48,553 bases of DNA from Prochlorococcus sp. AG-686-J21 (lineage in GTDB: Bacteria; Cyanobacteriota; Cyanobacteriia; PCC-6307; Cyanobiaceae). The number at the start of each line of letters is the position of its first letter. Position 1 is the stretch's first letter. The stretch spans positions 1 through 48,553 of the forward strand of contig QCVS01000013.1 of NCBI GenBank assembly GCA_003210285.1, read 5' to 3'. Shown here one piece after another: positions 3,542-33,436 of this stretch. Position numbers and translations under genes: made by a program. The notes below the pieces were generated by a model that did no database searches, was not told the origin of the DNA, and saw nothing but the letters and a program-made list of their open reading frames with translations.

Positions 3542-3706
3542 TTAACAACAAGAACAACCTCCCTCAGGTTCAGATCCTGGATGAATAGAAGTTAGTGCAT
3601 CTGCGATATCTCTCAACATATCTGCAACATATTCAGGAGGGCACCCAAATTTATTAACATAAGCAACACTTTGTTTTGCTATGTCTGTATAGGCAGGCAA
3701 GATCAT
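3542..3706 (-). CDS. small protein with a GGCSCC C-terminus (54 aa)
   Basis: ATG at 3706 gives 54 residues: a helical region (PAYTDIAKQSVAYVNKFGC), CPPEYVADMLRDIADAL, then SIHPGSEPEGGCSCC at the very end. The frame stays open and protein-like for 23 further codons upstream (including CELKWQPTKDQLDN) but without ATG, GTG or TTG, so the true start may be unusual or lost. The terminal CxCC suggests metal or thiol chemistry. It is convergent with the Nif11 gene, 33 bp apart. Function is unknown. Confidence 0.6.
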   Translation of the reverse strand: MILPAYTDIAKQSVAYVNKFGCPPEYVADMLRDIADALTSIHPGSEPEGGCSCC

Positions 3707-3992
3707 GTTGTCTAGCTGGTCTTTAGTTGGTTGCCACTTTAATTCGCAATTATCTGAGATCTGTGAAAATAATATTTAATTTTTAGTTTAATGACTTAAA
3801 AACTAATTATCAATAAGTTTGCGTACTTTTAATTATAAAATCTTAAAATGCAAATTAGATTTTCTTATTATTTAATTTTAAATATGATTTTTATTTTCAT
3901 CTTCAGCATATTACTTAATGCATTAAGTAAGCTTATAGTTGAATTTTAGACATATATTCTCTATAATTAATAACAATAATAATTTATCTATT

Positions 3993-4133
3993 ATGGTTAA
4001 TCTATTATCACAAAATATTATTATAAATAATATTAATTTTGCGGATAAAAAAGAAGTATGTCCTGGCTGCGGTTGTACTTGTCCTTGTGAGTGTAAAGAT
4101 TGTGAAGAATGCGCAACTTGTTGTGACCATTAA
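3993..4133 (+). CDS. metallothionein-like cysteine-rich protein (46 aa)
   Basis: ATG at 3993 (a TTG at 3939 would add 18 Asn-rich residues and is less likely). The second half packs ten cysteines into 24 residues, spaced CPGCGCTCPCECKDCEECATCC and ending DH. That density and the CxC/CxxC/CC spacing are those of metallothioneins, although it does not follow the SmtA pattern of freshwater cyanobacteria. Binding of Zn, Cu or Cd by thiolate clusters is inferred. It lies between the GGCSCC protein and an unknown minus-strand gene. Confidence 0.65.
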   Translation: MVNLLSQNIIINNINFADKKEVCPGCGCTCPCECKDCEECATCCDH

Positions 4134-5179: not shown

Positions 5180-5419
5180 ATGAGTATTTTAATTTCAAAA
5201 AACATGGTAGGTGTAACTAAAGATCCAACATTATTTTTACTTTTAGGGAGTATTGGCCTACTACTTTTTGGTTCAATAGGATATGGAATATATACAACAG
5301 TTGGACCATCATCCTATAAATTAAGAGATACAATTAAGGAGCATGCAAGATTACATGAATTAGGTATCGCGCATGGGCATAATAGTCAAAATCATAATGA
5401 AGCAGATCATATCCATTAA
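5180..5419 (+). CDS. PsbN-like protein with a histidine-rich tail (79 aa)
   Basis: ATG at 5180. Residues 17-36 form one membrane helix (LFLLLGSIGLLLFGSIGYGI), followed by YTTVGPSSYKLRDTIKEH. This matches the hallmark C-terminal part of PsbN (helix, then YT-x-GPPS-x-x-LRDPF-x-EH). PsbN helps assemble photosystem II reaction centres at the thylakoid membrane. PsbN is usually about 43-50 residues; this one carries an extra tail with HARLHELGIAHGHNSQNHNE and a final HIH, a possible metal site. psbH is not adjacent, so it may be a paralogue rather than canonical psbN. Confidence 0.55.
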   Translation: MSILISKNMVGVTKDPTLFLLLGSIGLLLFGSIGYGIYTTVGPSSYKLRDTIKEHARLHELGIAHGHNSQNHNEADHIH

Positions 5420-16943: not shown

Positions 16944-17128
16944 ATGAATTTAAAAAGATCATCATTTTTAATCTTTAAAATAGAGAGAAGAAAAGTTAAT
17001 TTAATCAATGGATTTTATAAGAGATGAGTTCAATCTGAGATGAGTCTTTTAAAGATACTGAAGATGAGGATAAGAAAGATAGAATCCAACTTCAAGTTCT
17101 CTTAATGCTTAATATGATCTCTATCTAA
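16944..17128 (+). pseudogene. degenerate small genes after the CP12-like gene
   Basis: An ATG at 16944 starts NLKRSSFLIF, echoing NFKRSPFAIQ at the start of the CP12-like protein, but the frame ends after 27 codons with no CP12 tail. Overlapping it, MDFIRDEFNLR (from 17008) ends at TGA, and a shifted frame goes on as DESFKDTEDEDKKDRIQLQV to a stop at 17128. One base removed near 17040 would join these. Either this is a decayed paralogue region or chance. Confidence 0.3.
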
Positions 17129-33229: not shown

Positions 33230-33436
33230 TTAATTCTTTTGTATCTTCTCTGCTTTAGATTTATAACTATCTGGGTCCCAATCTTTTTGGATATCTTTTA
33301 TGAAATCAAAAATAAATTCATTAGGACATTCAAGTTCTCTGTGAAGATCATTTAACTTTTGATTTATATATTTCTTAGTGAATGAAATTAACCTATCTTT
33401 TTGATAATTTGTGGGTTTCCATTTTTGATTGTTCAT
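33230..33436 (-). CDS. small hypothetical protein (68 aa)
   Basis: ATG at 33436. Charged and helical: NNQKWKPTNYQKDRLISFTK, INQKLNDLHRELECPNEFIF, DFIKDIQKDWDPDSYKSKAE. The plan resembles the protein at 39718-39888 (hydrophobic residues around CPEE/CPNE and a terminal IKDIQKDWD versus IFISKQWDN), so the two may be relatives. Soluble. Confidence 0.65.
   Translation of the reverse strand: MNNQKWKPTNYQKDRLISFTKKYINQKLNDLHRELECPNEFIFDFIKDIQKDWDPDSYKSKAEKIQKN

Follow-up and report, generated by a model that had tools for sequence, protein, structure and literature searches.

The window analysed here is the entire contig QCVS01000013.1 (48,553 nucleotides; C13 in our numbering) of Prochlorococcus sp. 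AG-686-J21, whose genome assembly amounts to 1.58 Mb in 32 contigs. Close to one end of it lie three small genes, and the interval between the two that diverge holds a putative Zur-type box and a predicted promoter (Table 1).

Table 1. Genes and sequence elements at the locus, in coordinates of the window.
Feature	Position	Strand	Remarks
Nif11-domain protein, 77 aa	3275..3508	+	GTG start; convergent with the 72-aa gene; Pfam and NCBIfam matches
72-aa helical protein with C-terminal CSCC tail	3542..3760	-	divergent from the 46-aa gene; ATC at 3758-3760
54-aa ORF of the initial annotation, ending GGCSCC	3542-3706	-	C-terminal part of the conserved 72-aa protein
46-aa metallothionein-like protein	3993..4133	+	ten cysteines, nine invariant in 21 aligned relatives
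Putative Zur-type box, weakened copy: AATATGATTTTTATTTTCA	3881..3899	+	matrix score 18.2; 14/17 to the znu consensus
Perfect 20-bp palindrome: TTACTTAATGCATTAAGTAA	3911..3930		between box and -35
Predicted -35, TTGAAT	3939..3944	+	assigned by eye; agrees with the TTGACT of related promoters
Predicted -10, TATAAT	3962..3967	+	17 bp after the -35
Rival -10, TATAGT	3934-3939	+	seen in sister genomes

The 54-aa and 46-aa open reading frames described in the initial annotation were both found where it had placed them, but the former is a truncated part of a longer protein: the open frame and its conservation extend 18 residues upstream of the 54-aa start. The two nearest genomes, G138 and G031, begin the resulting 72-aa gene with ATG where the window has ATC, and the window differs from G138 at 3 of the 216 bases of this gene, one of them in the start codon. 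In the 46-aa frame the ten cysteines span residues 23 to 44, and its ATG lies inside a longer frame that opens with TTG at 3939. Relatives of all three genes are present in other genomes, and pN/pS was calculated for sets hand-picked from the fetched loci: both 72-aa sets gave 0.22, the two 46-aa sets gave 0.38 and 0.57, and the Nif11 gene gave 0.27. Judged by these relatives and ratios, the three frames are more than chance open frames. Further along the window, at 5180-5419 (+), a 79-aa protein gives a PsbN match that is barely above the Pfam cut-off (25.6 against 25 bits).

The 46-aa protein is short and rich in CxC, CxxC and CC, as is typical of metallothionein sequences. The cysteines of the family are arranged as C-x2-C-G-C-x-C-P-C-[ED]-C, and nine of them are found without exception in all aligned members. 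Forty-three distinct host genes, chosen by this motif with a Met 12-26 residues ahead of it, end shortly past the last cysteine. Differences between the genes in the cysteine region fall mostly at the third codon position, and this holds at non-cysteine codons as well, where the three positions give 0.224, 0.189 and 0.393. The protein has no Pfam match up to E 10, the bacterial metallothionein family PF02069 included. In NCBIfam the window's protein matches nothing, and a relative has a single hit (E 0.027) that falls far short of the cut-off; the best PHROGs match has E 0.22 and the best PDB sequence match, to a ribosomal zinc protein, E 0.28. The nearest relatives among titled contigs are those of Prochlorococcus sp. 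AG-686-O05 and AG-686-P16, and records of strains MIT 9401 and MIT 9107 are among the carriers. Among 151 sampled genomes of the genus we counted 35 loci, in only 29 of the genomes. Across the Cyanobiaceae, in samples that were drawn separately and that contain many incomplete genomes, the 46-aa family was found in 19 of 350 genomes (2 of 59 genera) and PF02069, to which BmtA and SmtA belong, in 75 of 300 genomes (12 of 59 genera), with 0 of 75 in the two genera that carry the 46-aa family. A PF02069 search of the window's own genome gave no match.

The promoters of the 46-aa genes suggest a connection of this family with zinc uptake. Most of them contain AAAATGATWATCATTTT or a near copy. When three genomes were searched for the exact core ATGATWATCAT, 14 sites were found, 9 within open frames and 5 intergenic, and the intergenic ones lie between znuA and znuC in all three genomes and ahead of the 46-aa gene in two of the three. 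The argument rests on location, because a reversed control pattern gives similar totals (6, 6 and 1 sites, against 5, 4 and 5 for the core) and there is no excess of the core. Pfam names the genes beside the box as ZnuA and an ABC ATPase in one locus of the window's genome (L190, G000) and identifies a Fur-family gene near the box in L186 (G015); the other znu genes were matched by their printed sequence. When scored against a 17-mer for which only the znu boxes were used, 43 of 49 promoters of 46-aa genes reach at least 15 of 17 positions and 46 reach at least 14, the 49 being related rather than independent and including two with doubtful starts (L058 and L061). Among 4900 shuffled promoters these levels are reached by 0.7% and 5.5%. 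Six of the 49 promoters stay under 15, and the window's own box, at 14, is at the level that 5.5% of the shuffles reach. A matrix built from znu and 46-aa promoters together, with the window's site left out, ranks this box as the best site in the window, followed by one with 16.8 at 16952, against a null maximum of 10.9; the matrix is not independent of the 46-aa family, because promoters of that family went into it.

The position of the box differs between the two kinds of promoter. The core starts 34-35 bp ahead of the znuA ATG, whereas 37 of the 49 promoters of 46-aa genes have their best site starting 105-119 bp ahead of the start codon. A -35/-10 pair can be recognised by eye between the box and the 46-aa gene. 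In an automatic search of the 49 promoters, the distance between box centre and -10 came out as 70-76 bp for 18, the window's among them, and as 42-47 bp for 14; calculation from either distance puts the end of the box ahead of the -35. The box thus lies far upstream, as expected for an activator, and it is kept in differing surroundings of the gene. The palindrome between box and -35 was considered as an operator and set aside: it is present only in the window and, with one mismatch, in two sister genomes, and the other 25 promoters inspected lack it at that position.

A precedent for such a two-way switch is described for Synechococcus WH8102, where, according to the published account, zinc-loaded Zur represses znuABC, whose box covers the -10, and is an activator of bmtA, which has two boxes, one of them beyond the -35 (PMC9337993). 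Putative Zur sites ahead of other Prochlorococcus genes, of the COG0523 family, are already in print (PMC2770081). The locus studied here resembles the BmtA/SmtA system in having a small cysteine-rich protein, Fur/Zur-type promoter boxes and a znu system with the same box; it differs in that the 46-aa protein has no PF02069 match, occurs in other genera and shows the cysteine arrangement given above in place of the BmtA pattern, which has a conserved histidine. The likeness to the znuA-znuC box of the same genomes extends over the palindromic core and the A/T-rich flanks, the difference being the distance to the start codon.

In view of the above, we consider it probable, at roughly two chances in three, that the 46-aa gene encodes a zinc-buffering protein under Zur control, which is metallothionein-like and has no sequence kinship to BmtA. 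The description of this protein as metallothionein-like in the initial annotation thereby gains the backing of family conservation and of the Zur-type box in the promoters. Under ample zinc, Zur loaded with the metal would bind near the start of znuA and repress it, and would bind upstream of the -35 of the 46-aa gene and activate it, so that the logic of repressing znu and activating a buffer would be as in WH8102. The 46-aa protein would then bind the zinc through a cluster of thiolates. Animal metallothioneins have a nine-cysteine domain with CxC repeats that binds three metal ions, and if the nine conserved cysteines behave alike, perhaps three zinc ions would be held; this comparison rests on the shared nine cysteines and CxC repeats, a likeness of amino-acid make-up only, as the PDB gave no sequence match. 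The 72-aa protein would be separate and the Nif11 gene a bystander. It is from the conserved cysteine frame, the box common to most relatives' promoters and its upstream position, all of which are observed, that we infer binding and activation by Zur, metal binding by the protein, and zinc as the metal. The window's own copy may be decaying or weakening, because its box is weaker and its 72-aa neighbour has lost the ATG; the second copy in the genome (L063, G000:C23:188-325, 65% identical) has an intact box with the exact core.

An alternative that we regard as rather unlikely is that the 46-aa and 72-aa proteins form one unit, in which for example the CSCC-tailed protein passes metal to or from the metallothionein-like one. 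The initial annotation had pointed to an unusual cluster of three neighbouring genes, and the pair of cysteine proteins is indeed partly kept, but the trio mostly is not; the lack of synteny that the initial annotation named as refuting is thus not observed for the pair and is largely observed for the trio. In the same 151 genomes we found 24 loci of the CSCC-tailed family, spread over 23 genomes and counted as rows that reach the tail at 69% identity or more and leaving out weak or broken-tail rows (G098 and G033) and tail-less paralogues. At 11 of these 24 loci a 46-aa gene lies within 1 kb, divergent in all 11. Both genes occur together in 11 genomes, which is above chance (p 0.0006, relatedness ignored). 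Flanking sequences vary between pair loci, which speaks for a linkage of the two genes themselves: among 15 pair loci with longer flanks, BLAST matched the side beyond the 72-aa gene within three groups and otherwise not, and the side beyond the 46-aa gene is common to more loci. The CSCC tail is found at the C-terminus in all 11 loci fetched from other genera, which likewise speaks for the one-unit reading. However, 13 of the 24 loci have no partner within 1 kb, 46-aa genes also occur without a 72-aa gene and in other surroundings, and no good box was found at 72-aa genes without a partner. In two of the 11 pairs the 46-aa gene is damaged, by a stop inside the cysteine region (G034) or by the loss of two residues including one cysteine, together with a poor box (G021:C27).

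By the matrix, and with L024 outside the scoring, 72-aa genes that adjoin a 46-aa gene have sites of 18.6-26.3 in nine of ten cases and 5.8 in the tenth, and seven tail-less paralogues score -0.9 to 6.9. The 72-aa gene was considered as a Zur target in its own right and rejected, since 12 CSCC-tailed genes with no 46-aa neighbour score -4.1 to 8.5; L015, a gene of this kind, is just over the null 99% point of 8.1 and under the null maximum. The structure model of the 72-aa protein (pLDDT 79.6) predicts a helical hairpin of helices 13-38 and 42-58 with a disordered tail. No named family was found in Pfam (best E 0.06, below the cut-off), NCBIfam (no match) or PHROGs (E 0.14), and against the PDB the best sequence match has E 0.016 and the best fold match E 2.3, with no fold at E 0.001 or better. 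Counting tail-less paralogues in, the family has matches in 76 of 350 Cyanobiaceae genomes (16 of 59 genera); in viral contigs 80 stretches fitted the pattern and none was confirmed. Among 31 loci, 27 of them centred on the gene, neighbour sets common to at least five loci occur only around tail-less paralogues. We take the 72-aa protein most probably to be a small thiol or metal-binding protein in its own right; a role as chaperone would be a guess. A weak relative (E 1.3e-5) lies elsewhere in the window at 33287-33433 (-), and a tail-less relative at G000:C7:81108-81314 is about 5.6 kb from the znu box of contig C7.

Other genes recur beside the 46-aa gene. Fourteen loci (L136, L138-L140, L143, L144, L146, L147, L149-L152, L040 and L132, at least one genome being present twice) have a common neighbourhood with a protein that, recognised by eye, we take to be cyanase, plus ABC-transporter genes. 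In one subgroup a HupE/UreJ-family gene (PF04955; L191:573-1353 and related loci) follows about 15 bp after the 46-aa gene on the same strand; this subgroup consists of 12 full-length matches, L058 and a contig-end piece in L048, several loci being the same genome twice. The promoters with this spacing contain two or three boxes each. In five loci of the second genus, a HupE/UreJ-family gene lies about 400 bp downstream.

The regulator could also be a different one. Fur-family boxes look alike, and the box might be read by Fur or PerR, with the 46-aa protein buffering iron or copper or acting as a buffer of thiol redox state. Because of this resemblance Zur is the likeliest reader and not a proven one. 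We nevertheless find the Fur or PerR reading improbable, in that an exact search of three genomes found no intergenic copy of the core other than those at znuA-znuC and at the 46-aa gene.

The same cysteine core is found in cyanophages. At least 120 stretches with it are present in marine viral contigs, in a frame about 29-49 aa long whose core reads CGCxCPCEC (L163-L176, L203:1991-2080, L208-L284 and L325-L404, from marine viral contigs and P-SSM2). The matches listed include 90 ORFs in 90 loci, 66 of them distinct and at least five contigs being present twice, and in 88 of the 91 loci examined there are one or more out of five genes from a single cyanophage module. A reading of these peptides simply as relatives of the host proteins lost ground, since the other frame reveals an overlap with the signal peptide of a conserved phage protein, found in 44 of 46 cases; the NEK with which the phage peptides commonly start is ATG AAA AG read one base off. 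A second set of 80 loci was chosen by the signal-peptide protein and not by cysteines, as the best 80 of at least 358. In these best 80 the CGCxCPCEC core occurs in 17, and per 24 residues 30 loci have at least 8 cysteines, 5 have 6-7 and 45 have 5 or fewer. Counted by codon position of the signal peptide, phage differences concentrate at position 2 in the cysteine-rich group (0.45) and at position 3 in the cysteine-poor group (0.54). In the cysteine-rich group the non-cysteine codons favour no clear frame (0.37, 0.28 and 0.37). The phage frame remains a lead because of this and because sorting by cysteine count itself favours the position-2 result; pN/pS values for the phage cores are biased because the cores were chosen by motif. 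It may represent a mini-metallothionein overprinted on the phage gene, or it may follow as a by-product from Val/Ala codons. Among six phage records, P-SSM2 has the cysteine-core frame, unannotated, and S-SSM4 a shorter cysteine-rich frame, and the filter used found no such frame in MED4-213, S-H25, P-HM2 and syn9. A tblastn search of phages with the 46-aa protein gave no match, perhaps because the filter of that search masks the sequence.

For the host genes one may likewise ask whether, as possibly in the phages, the genuine gene is the hydrophobic, Val/Ala-rich +1 frame and the cysteine-rich frame a by-product. In 25 of 26 host cores no stop interrupts the +1 frame across the cysteine region, in part because cysteine codons read one base off give no stops. 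Yet host differences fall at the third position of the cysteine frame, and the +1 frames begin and end variably, which makes this reading very improbable.

The least credible reading takes further the cluster with a leader-like peptide that was remarked on initially: the three genes would form a RiPP cluster with a Nif11 leader. We dropped it since, although the domain is genuine, there is no core peptide, no LanC-like protein was found in the window's genome and the trio is together at 4 of 16 close Nif11 loci. In detail, the Nif11-like protein scores 47.8 bits in Pfam (cut-off 23.8) and 44.5 bits for TIGR03798 in NCBIfam, so that by profile the domain is a true one. The leader domain of a Nif11-type precursor is therefore present in the 77-aa neighbour, as in the family of TIGR03798 and PF07862, but the protein ends in GEGGN with nothing past the GG, and the window's own genome has no match to LanC-like PF05147, the sole modifying-enzyme family searched. 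The two cysteine-rich proteins are unrelated to this leader family. Of the 16 loci of the close Nif11 form (at least 65 bits) in the 151 genomes, 4 lie within 2 kb of a 72-aa gene and 12 are elsewhere. Prochlorosins are, by the account in PMC10783134, reported in Prochlorococcus from the LLIV clade only. The Nif11 gene is probably a bystander.

Returning to the reading of the 46-aa gene as a Zur-controlled zinc buffer, none of the publications listed in a literature search deals with the family in Prochlorococcus or in phages, although an earlier mention may exist. A 2021 paper describes Prochlorococcus MIT9312 and NATL2A as being without a metallothionein gene and states that the handling of excess zinc by Prochlorococcus is not known (PMC8374608). 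As a tentative and doubtful extension, Prochlorococcus may have swapped the Synechococcus metallothionein for a minimal protein of unrelated sequence that answers to the same zinc switch. Cyanophages, in this view, would carry the same cysteine core as a second frame over the signal peptide of a conserved phage protein, a single stretch of their DNA coding for a signal peptide and a mini-metallothionein at once, and host and phage versions may have an ancestor in common. If the Zur-controlled reading is true, a metallothionein-like family would answer the question of excess zinc for its carriers, which are part of the genus, and with strains MIT 9401 and MIT 9107 among them the question can be tested in culture. 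Two unrelated proteins would then stand under one zinc switch in sister lineages.
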